Shown: one piece after another, positions 33,886 to 46,962 of the stretch
Numbering within the stretch: position 1 is the stretch's first letter
Layout: each line of letters opens with the position of its first letter
Assembly: GCA_016196035.1 (NCBI GenBank)
Contig: JACPYM010000006.1
Location: 1-64,000, forward strand
Source of the DNA: Acidobacteriota bacterium
GTDB lineage: Bacteria > Acidobacteriota > Blastocatellia > RBC074
DNA: 64,000 nt
Direction of reading: 5' to 3'
Notes under the pieces: generated by a model
Told to the model about the DNA's origin: nothing
What the model saw: only the letters and a program-made list of their open reading frames with translations
Database searches by the model: none
Program-made: the position numbers and the translations under genes

Positions 33886-35532
33886 CTACCTAATCGCCAC
33901 CTGGGGCCAACCTGAAGTTTTCAACTCACGGCGCAACTTCGCCATCGTCGCTTCGACGTCTTCCAGTTTGCGCGGGATTCCCGCCGACAGCACGACGGGG
34001 TCGCCATTGGTCACCAGCACGTCGTCTTCGATGCGCACGCCGATGCCTTTGTATTTCTCGAACGCCGGGCGCACGGCCTTGATGAACTTCTCGTTCTCTG
34101 GCGTCTTGGGCAGCACATCCAACGCGTCGGGGCGGATGTAAATGCCCGGCTCGACGGTATAAATCATGCCCGCCGCCAAGGCTTTGCCGCGCACACCCAC
34201 ATCGTGCACGTTCATGCCCAGCCAGTGGCTAGTGCCGTGCATAAACCAAGTGCGGTACTCGCTGCTGTCTTTGGATGTAATCAACCCCAGCCGCAACAAC
34301 CCTTCTTTAACGACTTCGGTTGCGCGTTCGTTGCCGCTGGTGGCCGCTGGGCCGCCGCTCATGAAATTGCCGGGCCGCGCGACTTTGAACGCGGCTTCCT
34401 GCGCTTCATAAACAATGCGGTAAATGTCGGCTTGCGTAGGCGTGAATTTGCCGTTGATCGGCAGCGTGCGCGTGATGTCGGCAGAGTAATGATCGTATTC
34501 CGCCGCGCAATCCATCAGCAGCAACCTGCCATCGTCCAGGCGATCCTGGCTGGTGATGTAATGCAGCGTCGTCGCGTTGTCGCCCGCGCCCACGATGCAG
34601 GGATAGCCCCAGTTGTCGGCGTTGCGGCGGCGATAGGTGTATTCAAACTCGGCCTGCGCTTCGTACTCGTACATCCCCGGTGCGGCCACAGCAAAGACGC
34701 GGAAAAAGGCTTCACCGGAAATGTCCACCGCGTGTTGCATCAGCTTGATCTCCCACGGCGATTTGATCTGGCGCAGCTCGGCAAAAATCGGATTGGCATT
34801 TTTGATCGAAAGGCCCGCGTTGGCGCCGGAGATTGCCTCAGCCATTTCGTGTTCAGCGCGATACTCGCGCAAATCACGGCCCTGCGGCGTCAGCAAATAC
34901 AATTCGCCTTGATTGTTCTTGATTGCATCACTGATGGATTGAAACTCGCTCTGCCATTGCGCGGCCAGCGCGGCTTGCGGCTTTGAGACATTGCCGCGCT
35001 TCGCCAATGCCTGTTCGGCGCGCGGGGCCAGTTGCGCCAGGAAGCCATTGAGCAAGCGGCTGTCCCAAACTTCCTGCACACCGCTGCGGGCGCGGGCTTC
35101 GTCGGTGCTCATCATCCGACCGTGCCAGGTTTCATTGCGCGGGTCGCGTTCGGGCATAAACAGAATTTCGCGCGTTTTGGCCGCACCGGGCAAGAGAACC
35201 AGGGTCGCGCCATCCTGCTTGATGCCGGTCAGGTAATACAGATTGTTTTCCTGCCGGTAGTGGTAATCCACGTCGTTGGTATAAACGCGCGGCTCGGTGC
35301 TGAGCAGCACCATCACGGCCTTGTCGCCCATACGCTTCATCACTTCAGCGCGGCGTTTGCGCAATTCGGTGACGCGGTCAAGCTCGGCGATTTGCGGCGC
35401 GGCGGGCGCCAAGTGCCACAATTCGGCGACGGCATTTTTGACAGCATCGCGGGCCGAAACGTTGAAGAACGAAGCGGTGAGCAGCACCACGGCAATGGCG
35501 CTGAAAAGAAGTGGGCGGCGGTTAAAAATCAT
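33886..35532 (-). CDS. Exported Xaa-Pro aminopeptidase (M24B)
   Basis: This 548-residue protein has a signal peptide ([20 protein letters not shown]) and then an aminopeptidase P N-terminal domain ([30 protein letters not shown]). The pita-bread catalytic domain carries the M24 metal ligands ([51 protein letters not shown]). It removes N-terminal residues before proline, here in the periplasm. The cyclase gene follows by two bases. The ATG at 35532 is preceded by a weak GAGGT. Confidence 0.92.
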
Positions 35533-37441: not shown

Positions 37442-39436
37442 TTAACTTGGCTGGCTCGGCGGTATTACTTTGATCTGACGCCAAGCAATGTTGTTTACAT
37501 GGCTAACGTATGTTCTGAGGTAGTCATAAGGCTTGTTCACAAATATCTTTTTGATCTCCATCTGAGTTTGAAATCCGTTTAACTCATCACCTTTGTAAAT
37601 CAAGCCAACAAGATAGTAGCTCCCAGGAGGAAGCTTGTTAGTTTGAGTACTCCCCCAGTTCAATTTTGACGTGAGTTTTTTTCCTTCAGGCGGGATTGAA
37701 GAGATGGTGAGCGTGTTATTAAGCCATTGAAATTTCGATACGCCATCTGCTTTTTCAGCCCAAAGACCAACTCGGCATTTAACTCCGGTAGCTTTATTTA
37801 CTCCGCGATTCGATACTTGAAGTTCAATGTTATATTGCTGTCCTTGCTCGATCTCAATCACTTTGGGGAGATTAGTCCCATTTACAATGATGTCTGGTGA
37901 GGAAAATAAGATCATCTCATTTGGCGGTAAAGCAAATGGGTCGCCGTTATCCCCTTCGTAATCGGCTAGATAGAGATCAACAAGAGGCTTTACGTACTGT
38001 TTGAGTGTCAAGGGCTTAGATAATGATTCGATGATCCTGCCGAGATCAGGCATTCTGCCAATATTCTGTTTTGCTGCGGAGTCAGTGCCGTTATCATGCA
38101 GAAGGTCGCGCATTCGCCTGCCATCTATCCGCACACCGAATTTAGCATAAATCATTCCTTGTGTGGCAAGGGCGGCTCCAGCAACGATAGCTGCTGCGCT
38201 TGAGGTGCCGTCAAAGGATTTAGTATAGGTATAATAGGGATTATCGGGATTATTTTGATCGCCATTATTATTTATGGTTGTAGTCATCACTCCATCACCC
38301 CACGCATAGCAAGCGACACGGGTTTCCCCAAAATTGCTCGTGAGGGATCTCTTAGGACGATATACCCCTTTGACCAGATTCACACCTAATTGTTTAGGTA
38401 CAGCCGCCGCCACCAGAATAGCGCCAGAATCCTCTTTTTCATTTAGCTCTGTATCTAGATCCTTGCCGATGCCATTGCCAGCGGCAGCAACCACAATAAT
38501 TCCTAAAGCGGTGGCCAAACGAATCACATCATACTCTGCATCGAGTTTTTCAATGGGGAGATGATCGAATAAGCTAGCTACCCCTTCTTCGTCGTCACCA
38601 ATTTGCGCTTCCAACAAAAGAACGCCCCCTAAAGGAAGGCGATCAATCGCTGCCATCAGCACATTGGGGCGCTCTTTTCCCCAATAAGAGGCGATACCAA
38701 TACTGCTCAGGTTCGGGGTTATCCCTACACAACCGATTATATTGTCAACAGCGCAAATTACGCCAAGGGTCTGAGTTCCGTGGACAATGGATTTAAATTG
38801 AAGTGAGATGTTCTCGCCGATAGGAAGCGCAATGCTGCCGGGCAAATCAGGGTGCTTAAGATCCCAGCCTCGCTCAAAGTCAATCAAGATTTGTTTCTCG
38901 CCGCTGCCCCCTTTTTTCTCGCCACTCCCTTCCACAGGTTCAAAGTTCCAAGCGGCTATCGCATCTATCCCCCCGTTATTAGCGGATTGAAGATAACCTT
39001 GATCAACAAACATGGCATCATCGGGGTTCACTCCCGGCTCACTTGCCGGAGGATCGAAATAGGCACTTTGCACCAGTCCATCCAATGATTTGAACGCTCT
39101 GATCAGATCATCTATTTTGCCTGGGAATATTGGCGACGGACAGTCAACTACGAAATAGGTTAAAAAGTTGGGGCGGTTAGCTCTGCGGTATTCGGGATCC
39201 ATCAACTTAGCTTGTTGAGTGAGTTCCTGAATTCTATCTGCCCCAACCATAGAAAAGAGTGTCCTGATCTTGATGCCATGAAAATCGTTGCTTATTTTCT
39301 GCCACTTCTTTTGCCACTTGGGTTGAGACTGGGCCACGCGCTCAAAGGCTTCATTCCTGTAATTGTTTGGATCAAGAAAATACTCCTCGCTATCTTTTAC
39401 TTTGAGAATGATCCGGGGAGAGTATCCTAATCGCAT
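37442..39436 (-). CDS. Cytoplasmic-type subtilisin-like protease (S8) with C-terminal CARDB-like domain
   Basis: This 664-residue protein has no signal peptide. The S8 triad is visible: D186 (QILIDFERGWDLKHPDL), H219 (SIVHGTQTLG) and S412 (FDGTSSAAA), with oxyanion N321 (AAAGNGIG). Residues 1-180 are a prodomain-like unknown region (LTYFVVDCPSPIFPG). After about residue 500 a CARDB-like beta domain follows (YNIELQVSNRGVNKATGVKC). It is the last gene of a minus-strand set with an unknown protein, a TPR-CHAT protease and an ECF sigma factor. Lack of export suggests an intracellular target. Confidence 0.85.
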   Translation of the reverse strand: MRLGYSPRIILKVKDSEEYFLDPNNYRNEAFERVAQSQPKWQKKWQKISNDFHGIKIRTLFSMVGADRIQELTQQAKLMDPEYRRANRPNFLTYFVVDCPSPIFPGKIDDLIRAFKSLDGLVQSAYFDPPASEPGVNPDDAMFVDQGYLQSANNGGIDAIAAWNFEPVEGSGEKKGGSGEKQILIDFERGWDLKHPDLPGSIALPIGENISLQFKSIVHGTQTLGVICAVDNIIGCVGITPNLSSIGIASYWGKERPNVLMAAIDRLPLGGVLLLEAQIGDDEEGVASLFDHLPIEKLDAEYDVIRLATALGIIVVAAAGNGIGKDLDTELNEKEDSGAILVAAAVPKQLGVNLVKGVYRPKRSLTSNFGETRVACYAWGDGVMTTTINNNGDQNNPDNPYYTYTKSFDGTSSAAAIVAGAALATQGMIYAKFGVRIDGRRMRDLLHDNGTDSAAKQNIGRMPDLGRIIESLSKPLTLKQYVKPLVDLYLADYEGDNGDPFALPPNEMILFSSPDIIVNGTNLPKVIEIEQGQQYNIELQVSNRGVNKATGVKCRVGLWAEKADGVSKFQWLNNTLTISSIPPEGKKLTSKLNWGSTQTNKLPPGSYYLVGLIYKGDELNGFQTQMEIKKIFVNKPYDYLRTYVSHVNNIAWRQIKVIPPSQPS

Positions 39437-39509
39437 TTTTCCTCTTTCCGCAGAAAAGATGTATGGTTAAGTCTTTTGCGCGCACATCGAATATGTTAGC
39501 GCTGTAACC

Positions 39510-40364
39510 TCAGCCGCCAGCGCCGGAACAAAAAGGATCGTTTGTTGTTTCAGCCCCATCCGCCTTTATTGGTGCCATCAACTGATCTGGCTTTGGCTTT
39601 GGCTCGAAGATGCTGTAATAGTACAAAAAATGATTCCGATCTAGTTGGACTTTGGATGAATTTTTGGAAAGACTTTCCACCACTACTTCGTAGTCTTTTC
39701 CTCCTTCAAACGTGAAGGCTTTCGTGCCGTCACTGAAGTAGAGAAGGGCATAGCCGTTTTCTGGAATAGCTATTTCCAGCCCTGCTTTGATTGATATGGT
39801 CGTGGGCTTCGTCGCCGTTCCGGCTGTCAGTTTGCCGGTAATGTCCGCAATGCCATATTGAACACCTGGCCATGGTTTGAGTCCGTAAAGGCTTCCCGTG
39901 CTAACGTGGAATCTAGCTTTACACAGCTTAGGACTGGCCTTCACCTTCCCGACTGGATACAACTCTTTCTCGATATTGATCATGTGAAATTCCGCAGGCG
40001 AGCCGATTGAACCATCGTTGTTATCAATCAACTTCGTCAAAGTAATATCAGAAGTAGACAAGTCAAGTTGTGGAGACACCGGATAAACGTCAAGGCTCAA
40101 ATCACCAGCGACCTTTTTCCATGTTTTTTTCCAATACCTGAATTTGTTTGGACCGAATTTAATCTCATTGATTCGGATTTGAGGAACATGATAATCGCCG
40201 GCGGTTACCGGCACATTCTCAGGAAGAAGATTCTTGGTTGCTTTTGAAACCTCAACCAGACCTACGGTAAGCGATGGCGGGGTGGCATTCTGCCCAGCCG
40301 CTTCCAATAAGTTGTCAGTGAAGAACATGCATAAACCATCAAATCTAACCACTATTCTGCCCAT
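39510..40364 (-). CDS. Unknown protein in the CHAT/subtilase cluster
   Basis: This 284-residue protein starts MGRIVVRFDGLCMFFTDNLL and is rich in beta-type segments (YHVPQIRINEIKFGPNKFRY; AEFHMINIEKELYPVGKV; YALLYFSDGTKAFTFEGGKD). It ends NDPFCSGAGG, a Gly-rich tail. No signal peptide or known domain is recognised. It sits 73 bases from the S8 gene and 33 from the CHAT gene, so it may be a substrate or regulator of one of the two proteases. That is inference from position only. Confidence 0.7.
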   Translation of the reverse strand: MGRIVVRFDGLCMFFTDNLLEAAGQNATPPSLTVGLVEVSKATKNLLPENVPVTAGDYHVPQIRINEIKFGPNKFRYWKKTWKKVAGDLSLDVYPVSPQLDLSTSDITLTKLIDNNDGSIGSPAEFHMINIEKELYPVGKVKASPKLCKARFHVSTGSLYGLKPWPGVQYGIADITGKLTAGTATKPTTISIKAGLEIAIPENGYALLYFSDGTKAFTFEGGKDYEVVVESLSKNSSKVQLDRNHFLYYYSIFEPKPKPDQLMAPIKADGAETTNDPFCSGAGG

Positions 40365-40397
40365 GATTTATCTCCTTTTTGCCACTTGGTGCCGTTA

Positions 40398-43300
40398 TTA
40401 ATTTACCCCGTTTCCCGAGATTACAAAGGCAGCCCAGTAGTAGGGATGCCGCCATTGTTGGTTTTCCGAATTGAGCATCTTCAGTTGCGCTTGTTGCAGC
40501 GCAGTGCTGAAAGACCGCTTTTCGATCCGATGGACTCGGTGAAACTCATTCATCAGTTCGACCGATCCATCATCATCTACTTCCCATAAACCGGCGATCA
40601 CGTTTGGTACTCCGGCACTGAAGAACGAGTGCGCTAAACCTCCCATGCCTTGATCGTGCAGAAACGTATTTGCAGCAGCCCGGCAACTGGAAAGCACGAC
40701 CAGGCGCGTGCGCTGCAACTTGAGCTTAAATATCTCGCCAGCTTGCAGGCTGTCGCTCGCCCAATCCTGCGCATTGCCATCAGCATCCGCTTTCTCCGTC
40801 GCCAAAATGATCAAAGAGCGCAGTGGGTTTTGCTCATTGACGATACTATGAGTAGCCAAATGCACTATCTCGTAATCGCCTATCAGTTTGAGTAAGGCAC
40901 TCTTGGTCGCCTCCGCCTGTGTTAATCCAGTGTTGTCAGAATAGAGTGATCGAATGGCTGTCACTTCCACCGCTGTTCTAGGCAGCGGTTTCAGCGCCGG
41001 ATAAAGCTTAGGATTAAAGCGAGGATTACTCACAGTCAAAAGCGCCTCCTTGGGCCCCTTCTTCAATCGCCCCAGTTCAAGCATTTTGATCGCCACACTA
41101 GCGCTGGGGTTGATGACCGTGGCGTAATCCTGAACGAGATAACGCTGCGAATTAGGGGAGACTAGCGCGGAAAAAGGCACCGCGTTCAGGAACCGGTCTG
41201 GAACAATTATCAATATGCTCTGACCGTCCAAGCGGTGCGCAATAGGTTCGATCAAGACTTCGTAGAGTTTCGAGGCGGCGCTATTCAGTCGGTCGATGTC
41301 ACCGCGGTTATACAATTGAGCTAGGTAATCCGACACTATACTCTGTAGCTTTTTCTCCGTGATTGGGACAGCGACCGTCATCCATTGCTGCGCGGTGACC
41401 ACCCAAATCAGCAAGCGCTCATCAGTGACGGCATATGTTACAAGCTGGGCATTGGCAGGTATTGATTGTTGTACTTGTTTGAGCGTCAGCGCGGTCGAAA
41501 AACCGGAAGATTCCAGCGCTTCGCCAGATTGATTGGAGGGTTTGACGCCGATACCGGTCAAGGCGTCACGCAATTCACTGCCGCGCGTCATCTCCGCATA
41601 ATCGAAGGCGCGGTCGAAAGTCTTTTTGCGGAAATACTGATAACCAACCATTGTGCGGTAAACATTACTCTTGTCATTCAGGAAACTGCCGCGTATTGCC
41701 GCTTCACCCGTATTCTTGCGCGCCCGTTCGATCAGCTCAATACTGTCGTGCAATTCCTTTTCAGCTAACTCGTCTTTGCCTTGTCGTAAGTAGACGATGG
41801 CCATGCGGTGGTGAAGAACTGACTGGTTATAAAAATTATGCTCACCAACGATACTTAAGACTTTACGGTAGGCTGCTTCAGCCACTTCCCATCGCTGTTG
41901 ATTGAGGAACGCATTGCCCAAATTCAGATACAGATCGGGAGTCAGTATGGCGTTGCCAGTCTTGTCTTGATAATTTTCCGCCAACGAAATGGCCTCGTTT
42001 AGTGGCCTAATCGCCTCTTCGTTTCTCCCAGCTTGCGCATAGTATGTGCCGGTTTTGGCGAGCGAGGCGATTGTGATTATCTGATTGGCGTCGCTCTGGC
42101 AGTACCGGGAGGCTTCGAGCTGATAATCTAATGCGGGCTGAAGGTTTCCGCCGACAGCCAGCAATTCGGCGATCTTCGTATAAACCTGACAAGCTCGGCG
42201 AGTTGGCAACGAATGACCCCAAATCAATTGCAACGAAGCCAGATTCTTGTTGATACCAGTCTCGCGGTCACCCAAATCCGCATAAGTTGAACCGACGAAA
42301 CGCAAGGCATTAGCAGTGGCACCTGTATCCCCTAAGCGGCTGAAGATTTCATAAGCTTGTAAGCTCGCTTGCAATGCAGAGTAAAAATCTTGCCGAGCGA
42401 GTCGCAAATTGGTGTCGGCAATCAAGGCTCTGGCGTGCAGCATCTGGTGCCGATGGCGGGAAGTTTCGGCGATCAATCGCTGCCGGAGTTGGGGCATCTG
42501 GGGCGGCTCGACCTGCTGCGAGTTGAGCATCAAAGCTAAGCCACTGAGTGCCAATTCACTGTGGCAAACATCCGCTGCTTGCTCAGCGCTCCCGCGCGCT
42601 TTGGTGTAAAGGGAGATCGCCTGATCGTAGTGTCCAGTCTGGAAATTAGTTTCGGCTTGTGCCAACAGCAAGCGCGTGTTCTTAATCTTCTCGAGTTGTC
42701 GCTTATTCGCGCTAAAAATGTACGTAAACAAGTCCGCAAAGAAGTGCTCATCCTTCGTCTCTTTAATGCTTTGGGCAAGGCGCAGGAGCACCCGACGGTA
42801 TTGATCGGCCTTCGCGCGATTGTCGCTACTAACCACCGCTAGATACTCATCCGGCAAGTCGCGGGTAAGCAATTCTGACAACTCACTAAAATGCTCAGCC
42901 CAAAGCCGCCTTATTTCCGTGTCATTATTGGCGTCGTTCGCTACCAGAAAGAGTTGGGCCTTCAAATCCTGAGACGTCTTTGGGAGCGACGATTGGGTGC
43001 GCAGTTTTTGCAATCGAGTACGTGCTTCATCAGCCCAGCGTGAGGTTGAATCAATTTCGAGATACTTTTCCCAGGCAGACTTTGCCTCGGAAGGCAACAT
43101 CATTTGCTCGCGGATGAGTGCCAAGTTAAACCATGCTTCGGGTAATCGTGGTGCAAGTTTAAGTGCCTGCTCACAATTTTCTGCGGCTTGCGAAAACGTC
43201 AGCACAGACTGTTCCAATGTGCCGCGTTCGTACAGCAGTGTCGCCAGATCAACATAAGCTAGTGGATTTTGGGGGTCAGCCTCCAGCACTGCACGCAATT

Positions 43301-43982
43301 GCTGTTCAGCTTGATCAAATTCCCGTTTCAACAAATGCAACCTACCCAATGCCTGCCGCGCCTTTGGCGAAGGGCGATCCGCCACTTCACGCGCTAACTC
43401 TGCCGTGGCAGCTAACAACAACTCTGGCTTGACCGGGGCAGCATCATTGCCACCGCGGGTTACTTGATACGGCAAATAGGGAAAACCACCCGTGACGCGT
43501 GCTTCCAGCGGTCGGCTTTGTGTCCAAGCTTGGCGCAAAGAGGCCATCGCAAGTTCAACCGGCTGGTTGCGTTGATAATAGAAATAAGTAGGTACAACAA
43601 AAACCAGCAACAGCGCAGCGGCAACAGCCCAGCCGAATGCCGGTTGCCGAAAAACAAACCAGTGCCGCCAATTCAACGGTTCGGCAATCTGAGTAACTAA
43701 TTGCGGTTGGGCAGCCGTGCCCCTTTTCGCTGCCAGCGCTGCCGCTTCGCCCAGCCGTAACAGGCCGTCGAATTCGGGGCTGCCTTCCAATTCAGCATCA
43801 GGTTGTTGGGTGGATTGCCGGATCATTGCCAATTGCTCGCGGCAGTCAGCGCAGCGGATCAGGTGATCTTGCAGGCTGGGCAGCCGCTCTGGCAGGAGCG
43901 CGCCGCTCAAACAGGCAGCGAAGTCCTGGGCCACAAAATGGTCATTCCTATCCGGGATGCTCTGATTCAATTCGTTTCCCAT
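40398..43982 (-). CDS. Zinc-finger/TM anti-sigma-like N-terminus fused to TPR repeats and a CHAT protease
   Basis: 1194 residues. Residues 40-47 (H40, C44, C47) give an HxxxCxxC zinc-binding anti-sigma motif, followed by one membrane helix at 115-136. A long TPR region (about 190-800, e.g. ALGRLHLLKREFDQAEQQLR, NPLAYVDLATLLYERG) leads to a C-terminal CHAT caspase-like domain with H1045 (VHLATHS) and C1100 (VVLSSCRA). CHAT proteases act in cell-death and defence pathways, including type III-E CRISPR. ATG 43982 follows GAGG. The gene starts 42 bases after the ECF sigma gene, its likely partner. Confidence 0.88.
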   Translation of the reverse strand: MGNELNQSIPDRNDHFVAQDFAACLSGALLPERLPSLQDHLIRCADCREQLAMIRQSTQQPDAELEGSPEFDGLLRLGEAAALAAKRGTAAQPQLVTQIAEPLNWRHWFVFRQPAFGWAVAAALLLVFVVPTYFYYQRNQPVELAMASLRQAWTQSRPLEARVTGGFPYLPYQVTRGGNDAAPVKPELLLAATAELAREVADRPSPKARQALGRLHLLKREFDQAEQQLRAVLEADPQNPLAYVDLATLLYERGTLEQSVLTFSQAAENCEQALKLAPRLPEAWFNLALIREQMMLPSEAKSAWEKYLEIDSTSRWADEARTRLQKLRTQSSLPKTSQDLKAQLFLVANDANNDTEIRRLWAEHFSELSELLTRDLPDEYLAVVSSDNRAKADQYRRVLLRLAQSIKETKDEHFFADLFTYIFSANKRQLEKIKNTRLLLAQAETNFQTGHYDQAISLYTKARGSAEQAADVCHSELALSGLALMLNSQQVEPPQMPQLRQRLIAETSRHRHQMLHARALIADTNLRLARQDFYSALQASLQAYEIFSRLGDTGATANALRFVGSTYADLGDRETGINKNLASLQLIWGHSLPTRRACQVYTKIAELLAVGGNLQPALDYQLEASRYCQSDANQIITIASLAKTGTYYAQAGRNEEAIRPLNEAISLAENYQDKTGNAILTPDLYLNLGNAFLNQQRWEVAEAAYRKVLSIVGEHNFYNQSVLHHRMAIVYLRQGKDELAEKELHDSIELIERARKNTGEAAIRGSFLNDKSNVYRTMVGYQYFRKKTFDRAFDYAEMTRGSELRDALTGIGVKPSNQSGEALESSGFSTALTLKQVQQSIPANAQLVTYAVTDERLLIWVVTAQQWMTVAVPITEKKLQSIVSDYLAQLYNRGDIDRLNSAASKLYEVLIEPIAHRLDGQSILIIVPDRFLNAVPFSALVSPNSQRYLVQDYATVINPSASVAIKMLELGRLKKGPKEALLTVSNPRFNPKLYPALKPLPRTAVEVTAIRSLYSDNTGLTQAEATKSALLKLIGDYEIVHLATHSIVNEQNPLRSLIILATEKADADGNAQDWASDSLQAGEIFKLKLQRTRLVVLSSCRAAANTFLHDQGMGGLAHSFFSAGVPNVIAGLWEVDDDGSVELMNEFHRVHRIEKRSFSTALQQAQLKMLNSENQQWRHPYYWAAFVISGNGVN

Positions 43983-44024
43983 CTGGAAATGCCTCAGCAA
44001 TAGAGGACGCAATTCACCGGTAAA

Positions 44025-44672
44025 TCACACGGCCCCTGAAAGATATTTTCGCAGGCGGCTTTTCATCTGTCCCAAAAGGTTGGCGATGCTGGTCTCTTTC
44101 AATTCGGCTACGCCCAAGCCAGCAATCTCGGCGGGGCTGTAGCCTTCGCGCGCATAGAGCAAAAAAATCAGGATGTCGCGTTTGCGGTTCGGGCCGTCAA
44201 AACATTTTTCCAGCGTGTTGATTAACTCGCTTTCGGTAATGCTATGCGCCGCGCTTGAGACAGGGGTTGCCAGACTGGCTTCGCCTTGTTCTTCGAGTAC
44301 GGCTTGTAAGGAGACTTCATCTGCCGCGCGCCGTAGCGCCTGGCGGGCGCGCAAAAAACTCAGTGTTTGGTTGATGGCGGCGTGCGCCAGATACGCTTCG
44401 GCTTCGGCTTCGCTGGCGCCGCGAAAGTTGCGCAACAGGCCGAAATCGTTTTTAACGATGGCCGTATAAACATCCTGCAATAAATCAGCGGCGATTTCGG
44501 CGGGCGGCCAGGGGCCTTGCCCGCTCTTACGCCAGGCCACGGTAATGCTGCGTACCAACAGCGGATTGAAACGGCGCACGAACTCCAACCAGTACTCATC
44601 GCGCTGCGGCTGCGCGGCACAAAGTTGAAACAACATTGAACTGGCACTGCTTGTGAGGTGGCGTTCCTCCAT
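44025..44672 (-). CDS. ECF-type sigma factor
   Basis: This 215-residue protein has a region 2 segment (EIAADLLQDVYTAIVKNDF, YLAHAAINQTLSFLRARQAL) and a region 4 segment (FLLYAREGYSPAEIAGLGV, LLGQMKSRLRKYL). The downstream gene begins with a zinc-binding anti-sigma motif, which fits a sigma/anti-sigma pair. ECF factors steer RNA polymerase to a small regulon; here it may control the CHAT and subtilase genes that follow. The ATG at 44672 has only a weak ribosome site. Confidence 0.85.
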   Translation of the reverse strand: MEERHLTSSASSMLFQLCAAQPQRDEYWLEFVRRFNPLLVRSITVAWRKSGQGPWPPAEIAADLLQDVYTAIVKNDFGLLRNFRGASEAEAEAYLAHAAINQTLSFLRARQALRRAADEVSLQAVLEEQGEASLATPVSSAAHSITESELINTLEKCFDGPNRKRDILIFLLYAREGYSPAEIAGLGVAELKETSIANLLGQMKSRLRKYLSGAV

Positions 44673-45378: not shown

Positions 45379-45660
45379 GTGTTGTTACCAACCGGTCAAT
45401 TTCCGTGGGATGAAGCTACGACACAAGCATTCTCGTTGGCCGTGTTGCTGGAAGTCTTACGCTGGCTGGCCGCGTGGTTATTGGCCGTCAGCGCCGTGAC
45501 GTTTGTTCTTTATCTGGTTGGCGTGACGTTGCTTTGCCGTGGCGAGACACGGGCAAACCGACGCGCAGGCAAGCCCGGCGCACAACCTAAAACCCAGGCG
45601 CGGCCCGTGGCCGTCAAAGCGCAACACGCGCCAAAAAAGATGATGCCAAAAGGAGCAATC
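45379..45660 (+). other. In-frame upstream extension with its own ribosome site and a membrane helix
   Basis: These 94 codons run in frame, without a stop, into the lipoprotein gene at 45661. A GTG at 45379 follows AAGGAGGGG. The stretch encodes a membrane helix (AAWLLAVSAVTFVLYLVGVT) and a basic linker. It may give a longer, differently anchored form of the peptidase or be a small protein whose stop codon was lost. Confidence 0.5.
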
Positions 45661-46962
45661 GTGAAAACCAAACTGTTCTTACTCATTGTCAGCAGCGCGC
45701 TGACATGCCTGGCGCTGGCCTGCGCCACCCCACCCGTTGACAACCAAAAACCAGTAACAGCGGCGCCGGCTTCAGCCCAGGGTACAACTTCGGCCACGCC
45801 GCCCTCAGCCATTCCTACGCCCGCCGTGAATTACGCGGCCATCGCGCAAAAGGTGGTCACGCAATGCGCCGGGGTCAAACAGGGCGAGATTATCCAGATC
45901 AGCGGCGATGTCAAAGACGCTGAGTTGCTGGAAGAACTGGCGCTTGAAGTCAGCAAGCTGGGCGCGTTCCCGCTGGTGCAGATGTACCGCAGCAACCCGG
46001 AGCGCGCGAAACGGGCCATGCAAGAAATCCCGGCCAAGTGGGATACGCAACTCAATCAACTCGGTCTCAAACTCACGGGGATGATCAATGCCAACATCAT
46101 GCTCGCCAACGCCGAGCCGTCCAACCCGTTTGAAGACTTCCCGCAAGAACGTCTGGACGCGCAACGCCAGGCGAGCGAGCCGATCAACAAATTGCGCCGC
46201 CAACGCAATATCCGCGGCATCGCCATCGGCGGCAACGGCCTCTATCCATCCAAGACCAACAGCGAACGGCTGGGCCTGACACAAGCCGAGTTGGCGCAGA
46301 TTTTCTGGAACGGCATCAACACCGATTACACGCAACTGCAAGCCGACGGCGAAAAGTACCGCCAACTGCTGGCCGCCGCCAACGAGGTGCACTTGACGCA
46401 CCCGAACGGCACCGACCTCAAAGTGAAGATCGCGCAACGGCCCGTCTTTGTCAGCGACGGCGTGATCTCGGCTGAAGACATCAAGCGCGGCGGCCCGGCG
46501 GTGCAAGTCTGGCTGCCCGCCGGCGAAGCTTATGTCACCGTCGTGCCCAACACCGCCGAAGGCCGCATCGTGGTTGACCGTGACAATTACACCGGGGCCA
46601 ACGGCAACAATCTGATCGAGGGCCTCACACTCGAATTCAAAGCGGGCAAGCTGGTCTCGATGACGGCGCGCGCGGGTTTGGAACCGCTCAAGAAAGCCTA
46701 TGACAAAGTCACCGGCCAGAGCGGCGCGGGCAAAGACGAATTCAGCTTCGTTGACCTGGGCATCAACCGCAGCCTGGTGCTGGGGCCCAACGCCAAACGC
46801 GGCGATTACGCCCCGGCGGGGATGGTGTCTATTGGTTTCGGCGGCAATGAACAGTACGGCGGGGCGAATAAGGCAGCGTGGGGTTACGAGACGAATTTGA
46901 CAGGCTGCACGTTGCGGTTGGATGGAAAGGCGGTGGTGGAGAACGGCGCGCTCAAGCAATGA
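45661..46962 (+). CDS. M29-like aminopeptidase, predicted lipoprotein
   Basis: This 433-residue protein has a lipobox signal (KTKLFLLIVSSALTCLALAC, Cys lipidated) and a Pro/Ala linker. It then has a body like M29 leucyl aminopeptidases (GVKQGEIIQISGDVKDAELL; EVHLTHPNGTDLKVKI; DRDNYTGANGNNLIEGL; FSFVDLGINRSLVLGPNA; MVSIGFGGNEQYGGANKAAW). The late GGxxxxGG block fits metal-site regions, but I cannot verify all ligands. The GTG at 45661 follows AAAGGAG and is the best start for a lipoprotein. It begins the plus-strand set of secreted proteins. Confidence 0.72.
   Translation: MKTKLFLLIVSSALTCLALACATPPVDNQKPVTAAPASAQGTTSATPPSAIPTPAVNYAAIAQKVVTQCAGVKQGEIIQISGDVKDAELLEELALEVSKLGAFPLVQMYRSNPERAKRAMQEIPAKWDTQLNQLGLKLTGMINANIMLANAEPSNPFEDFPQERLDAQRQASEPINKLRRQRNIRGIAIGGNGLYPSKTNSERLGLTQAELAQIFWNGINTDYTQLQADGEKYRQLLAAANEVHLTHPNGTDLKVKIAQRPVFVSDGVISAEDIKRGGPAVQVWLPAGEAYVTVVPNTAEGRIVVDRDNYTGANGNNLIEGLTLEFKAGKLVSMTARAGLEPLKKAYDKVTGQSGAGKDEFSFVDLGINRSLVLGPNAKRGDYAPAGMVSIGFGGNEQYGGANKAAWGYETNLTGCTLRLDGKAVVENGALKQ

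Follow-up and report, generated by a model that had tools for sequence, protein, structure and literature searches.

A sigma factor-CHAT-protein U core with an exchangeable protease slot in a putative proteolytic response system of Acidobacteriota

Comparison of gene neighbourhoods shows that the predicted cluster is better described as a conserved core of a sigma factor, a TPR-CHAT protein and a protein of a new family (here called U), followed by an exchangeable protease slot, than as the set of four genes put forward in the preliminary description of this DNA. That fixed set was dropped, because its fourth gene, an S8 subtilase, is replaced in most loci. The cluster is interpreted as belonging to a modular proteolytic response system of Acidobacteriota under sigma control, in which U would act as a common target or switch; we give this reading a probability of roughly 0.45, somewhat short of even. 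The sigma-CHAT-U core is found in dozens of loci. Its genes show two predicted variants: either a membrane-anchored TPR-CHAT protein with a fused anti-sigma-like N-terminus, or, in a second class, separate genes for the sigma factor, an anti-sigma-like protein and a lipoprotein-like CHAT protein.

The window (the whole stretch of 64,000 nucleotides that was analysed) carries the cluster as four ORFs on the minus strand, separated by gaps of 42, 33 and 73 bp, as first described; the gene calls are mechanical. The first gene (44025..44672, minus strand) encodes a predicted ECF-type sigma factor of 215 aa. It is matched by TIGR02937 (E=1.7e-7; 31 bits over residues 31-209, below the cut-off of 42.9) and by PRK11922 (E=2.9e-7, also below cut-off), with no Pfam sigma match at E<=0.01; at the same position in other loci, some proteins score Sigma70_r2/r4. 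A simple ECF-like promoter pattern found no match upstream of the sigma genes. The second gene (40398..43982, minus strand) encodes the TPR-CHAT protein of 1194 aa, numbered from its ATG, with a TTG start at 44012 also open. Its TPRs, recognized by TPR models, precede a C-terminal CHAT domain (PF12770, E=6e-66, 223 bits against a cut-off of 24), and the motifs HLATH and LSSC place the CHAT dyad at H1045 and C1100, in agreement with the earlier assignment. The gene for U (39510..40364, minus strand, 284 aa) follows; its product, reported before as unmatched, indeed has no match in Pfam, NCBIfam or PADLOC. The slot is occupied by an S8 subtilase gene (37442..39436, minus strand, 664 aa; PF00082, E=1.8e-8, 34.5 bits against a cut-off of 21.8). 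The catalytic residues D186, H219, N321 and S412 are all in place and no N-terminal hydrophobic stretch is present, confirming the intact triad (D186/H219/S412) and the missing signal peptide noted earlier. A weak CARDB-like stretch lies in the C-terminal part. By sequence reading only, the cluster is flanked by an Xaa-Pro aminopeptidase-like gene (33886-35532) and an aminopeptidase-like gene (45379-46962), both outside the module.

As judged from its alignment, U is a new, very divergent protein family. A single-sequence search with the window protein recovered one paralogue in its own genome, and five further genomes from its GTDB family yielded relatives, which adjoin TPR-CHAT genes. Profiles built stepwise from these relatives were then run on the window's class (the first class), a phylum sample and the second class, and detected U in 30 of 162, 15 of 396 and 9 of 149 genomes, respectively, many of the surveyed genomes being MAGs. 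A scan of genome contigs gave four loci only, all of them already in the set. The alignment of 45 members has a mean column identity of 16%, with one invariant His (H59 in the window) and one invariant Cys (C279). After extension by 17 sequences, each is found in 61 of the 62 rows. The exception for the Cys is L163, gapped in that column, which has a Cys near its end that was overlooked by the aligner; the weak match L173 has Arg in place of the His, and a His one residue later. The Cys is followed by a median of 12 residues. A PA-type cysteine protease (order His-Asp-Cys) was considered and dropped, because the Cys lies only ~12 residues from the C-terminus.

Searches of Pfam, NCBIfam and PDB for relatives of U, by sequence and by profile, returned chance-level matches only. 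One member of the 45-sequence alignment matches the PADLOC model Cas8g (E=3.2e-5). None of the 45 matches EACC1 or EACC2 in Pfam, a library that may lack an EACC2 model. AlphaFold2, run on five sequences in two jobs, gave a mean pLDDT of 42 and no usable model; at this low confidence, U is predicted to be mostly beta. With the second model (mean pLDDT 42), Foldseek found nothing at E<=0.001, the best hit being an NAD kinase at 0.03. Nothing points to an origin from phages or plasmids, since U was found neither by tblastn in phages and plasmids nor by a scan of viral contigs.

The gene neighbourhood of U was counted by hand from ORF tables. Outside family f8, a TPR-CHAT gene lies directly upstream of U or one gene away in 37 of the 40 first-class loci; two of the other three (L080 and L082) end at contig edges, and L043 is truly without CHAT. 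A sigma gene precedes CHAT in most first-class loci. L010-L012 differ in that the place before CHAT is taken by an AlkZ-related protein or a remnant of it, rather than by the sigma gene; the AlkZ-related proteins (PF24741) of the M91 loci L010 and L011 are located at L010:13579-14442 and L011:7338-8171. The complete order sigma-CHAT-U-S8 is also present in L044, from a genome of another family than the window's. A recurrence of the four genes, the check proposed in the preliminary description, was thus seen for the core and, in L044, for the full order, while the S8 gene is not constant. As for the unrelated neighbours that would have spoken against the set, U proved to be a constant partner of CHAT, and the protease beside it, where there is one, comes from any of about seven families, S8 among them. 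In three Nal1-type loci, a zinc-ribbon, proline-rich ORF is inserted between CHAT and U (L091:9932-11035, L098:7659-8579, L102:7763-8746).

The protease slot was defined as the next gene on the same strand with a start no more than 225 bp behind U; 23 first-class loci have one. In 22 of the 23, this gene is a protease. S8 subtilases occupy it in the window, L044, L078, L080, L083, L085, L086 and L093; C39-like proteases in L008 and L076 (the latter below cut-off); M91 in L009, L010 and L011; a C70-like protease in L088; a trypsin in L089; proteases of a Nal1/S64-like trypsin fold in L091, L094, L098, L102, L103 and L164, mostly below Pfam cut-offs; and C14 in L104. The L091 gene has no Pfam match and was assigned as Nal1-like via its similarity to L098 and L102. 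The one exception is L099, where U overlaps an RdgB-like gene. L012 carries M91 on the opposite strand, and in about 13 first-class loci U is not followed by a protease. The seven families represent about five folds, with C39 and C70 counted together as papain-like proteases and Nal1 placed with trypsin under the trypsin fold. Two U genes per locus are seen in L078 (7761-11103) and L008 (8479-11630), with the protease between them, and in L079, where they are divergent.

Such regularity makes a chance neighbourhood, that is, ordinary stress operons that happen to adjoin proteases, hardly credible. CHAT genes are abundant (34 in the window's genome) and many of the genomes are MAGs, which would favour accidental proximity; this explanation is nevertheless already contradicted, because U is found in this setting again and again, across two classes and beside seven protease families. 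Within the window's genome, U is found in two loci only, the window and C114. None of the 32 other CHAT loci fetched from it has U, and none of those listed has a sigma gene followed by a fused anti-sigma/TM/TPR/CHAT protein. In four of its loci (L127, L129, L132 and L136), a TPR-CHAT gene is followed by separate sigma and anti-sigma-like genes without U, apparently an unfused version of the module, judging from gene content.

In the tree of U, the window (S8), L008 (C39-like), L010/L012 (M91) and L013 (no protease) fall into one set with an SH-aLRT of 99%, a grouping which, taken as a gene tree, shows exchange of the predicted protease on a close U branch. Across the tree, the protease labels are more clustered than in shuffles, yet the tree, a quick one whose branches are long, still requires 14 changes. 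Similarity between the window S8 and the other S8s is only remote, so the two sigma-CHAT-U-S8 clusters (window and L044) may reflect a separate gain of S8. Relatives of S8 in G011 and G015 stand alone. Since unrelated folds swapping beside one protein most simply share what they cut, this exchange would be consistent with U as a common protease target. A role of U as an inhibitor or chaperone, keeping a harmful protease off until needed, would explain why the U and protease genes lie side by side, often overlapping or <100 bp apart, and why in L008 and L078 the protease is enclosed by two U genes. It is less simple, because a single family would need to match several unrelated protease folds, including those exchanged on a close branch, and be re-invented for each of them; U also persists without a protease, and we regard such a role as very unlikely.

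In the second class, all 13 U loci contain CHAT, and U lies directly downstream of it in 12 of them; the gene order in L171 is U-C14-CHAT. CHAT is a separate gene here, often lipoprotein-like, and the sigma gene and an anti-sigma-like gene are divergent from the cluster, where seen. A C14 caspase is part of the cluster in nine of the 13 loci, based on Pfam or our own profile, and in a tenth, L160, by eye. L161 and L165 have a caspase 1-3 kb from U, and the weak U match L173 is accompanied by a papain-like gene recognized by eye.

The N-terminus of the window CHAT protein carries the H-x3-C-x2-C motif of zinc anti-sigma domains (HLIRCADC, by sequence reading), followed by one TM segment at about residues 116-134. 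It has no zf-HC2 match, and a TPR partner in f8 reaches E=0.022 with that model. The sigma factors of the window and L089 are 53% identical to each other and only 11-18% identical to the remaining sigmas, and these two loci share the zinc-type CHAT N-terminus alongside their unusual sigma. Most other loci combine a second sigma type with a non-zinc N-terminus. This paired change, in two loci only, fits partner specificity between the sigma factor and the CHAT N-terminus, and the putative anti-sigma function ascribed to the protein earlier is in line with it.

The TPR-CHAT part is probably located outside the cytoplasm, because K/R residues flanking the TM segment in 29 CHAT proteins are more numerous on the N-terminal side than on the other (80 versus 52), as in the positive-inside pattern, and the second-class CHATs have lipoprotein-like signals. 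Export signals are absent from the window U and S8, as from most U and slot proteases, but are present in the U of f8 and L087, and a membrane anchor or signal peptide is found in some slot proteases. In the second class, CHAT and the caspase look exported and U does not. A direct CHAT-to-S8 cascade is thus an unproven, putative step, because CHAT is probably extracytoplasmic and the window U and S8 are without export signals.

U is not restricted to loci with a CHAT or a protease. In the f8 genomes, the genes for exported U are mostly convergent with one for a zinc-finger/TM/TPR protein that has no CHAT; this multi-copy arrangement is, from its gene content, a separate expansion of the family. 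Genomes G036, G054 and G056 (L037-L042, L106-L115) carry many exported copies each, with 13 matches in G054. At L043:8885-9829 and L090:8804-9709, the neighbours of U are genes for a sigma factor and a Ser/Thr kinase in place of CHAT. A protease is hence not needed for the retention of U, because f8, L043 and L090 keep it without CHAT and protease; U therefore belongs first to sigma-linked sensor modules, with the protease as a frequent addition. These loci are the main argument for an alternative, in which U would join the TPR part of the sigma-linked membrane sensor as a sensing or ligand-binding component, with the protease as an accessory output. The exported U of f8 and L087 would be on the side where the TPRs are expected. 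Most U proteins have no export signal, however, and the alternative leaves the protease after U in 22 of 23 loci unexplained, which makes it unlikely, if worth serious consideration.

Several known systems resemble the cluster in part. Neighbourhoods of the ECF54 group combine an ECF sigma factor with CHAT and subtilase genes, and proteolytic regulation has been proposed for them (PMC8999054). The preliminary description knew of no report of this exact gene set; the combination of ECF-type sigma, CHAT and subtilase had in fact been noted there, and the ECF54 passages of that review mention neither U, nor a fused anti-sigma domain, nor protease exchange. Their example is actinobacterial (Geodermatophilus) and is described as being without an anti-sigma factor (PMC8999054). 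In the type III-E CRISPR system (Craspase/CASP), made of Cas7-11, the TPR-CHAT protease Csx29, Csx30 and CASP-sigma, the CHAT protease cuts Csx30, the holder of an ECF-like sigma factor (PMC10028731). That locus likewise unites a TPR-CHAT protease, an ECF-like sigma and a further protein. In contrast, the TPR-CHAT protein of the window is membrane-anchored with a fused anti-sigma-like domain and is accompanied by a second protease; no CRISPR effector stood out among the cluster genes. Library searches revealed no similarity of U to Csx30, and the window sigma matches the III-E sigma model only weakly (14 bits against 100). In EACC2-caspase systems, a constant component and a protease are also accompanied by ECF sigma and TPR genes; as described, the caspase is constant and the C-terminal domain varies, whereas CHAT and U are constant here and the following protease varies (PMC8195603). 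No description of U or of the protease exchange was found in the open-licence papers searched.

Bacterial gasdermins, whose genes adjoin those of proteases, caspase-like ones among them, and whose cleavage site lies ~20 residues before the C-terminus (PMC9612521), offer a further comparison. U is of similar size, mostly beta at low prediction confidence and constant beside changing proteases, and its tail after the Cys is short, with a median of 12 residues. It could thus be an executioner, freed by the slot protease or CHAT cutting the C-terminal tail and then permeabilizing or killing the cell. Unlike gasdermins, however, U is attached to a sigma/anti-sigma module and has no gasdermin match in Pfam, NCBIfam, PADLOC or a PDB profile search. 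The lipid-modified Cys of gasdermins is N-terminal and the invariant Cys of U C-terminal, and the f8 copies are exported without a protease. We consider a gasdermin-like role clearly unlikely.

In the preferred reading, that of a modular proteolytic response system, the TPR-CHAT part would sense a signal outside the membrane, and the N-terminal domain of the same protein would hold the sigma factor inside. Activation would free the sigma factor, which would turn on the operon, with cell death, defence or stress clearance as conceivable outcomes. With less certainty, U would be the common target or switch of the slot proteases, and the short C-terminal tail around its invariant Cys is the first candidate cleavage region. 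Counting against this are the probable extracytoplasmic position of CHAT, opposed to a mostly signal-less U and proteases, and the first-class loci that lack a protease. Whether one constant His/Cys protein serves as common receptor or substrate for about five protease folds, controlled by a single membrane protein combining the roles of sensor, anti-sigma factor and caspase-like protease, is doubtful; if so, it would be a categorically new proteolytic switch.

If the main reading is true, environmental bacteria would swap protease cassettes beside a constant partner under the control of an envelope sigma factor, in parallel to the swapping of toxin domains in polymorphic toxins and to the proteases beside gasdermins. 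As a so far unstudied family with an invariant His and Cys, U is open to direct testing, and it would connect sigma factor signalling with caspase-like enzymes, and possibly with regulated death, within a single operon.
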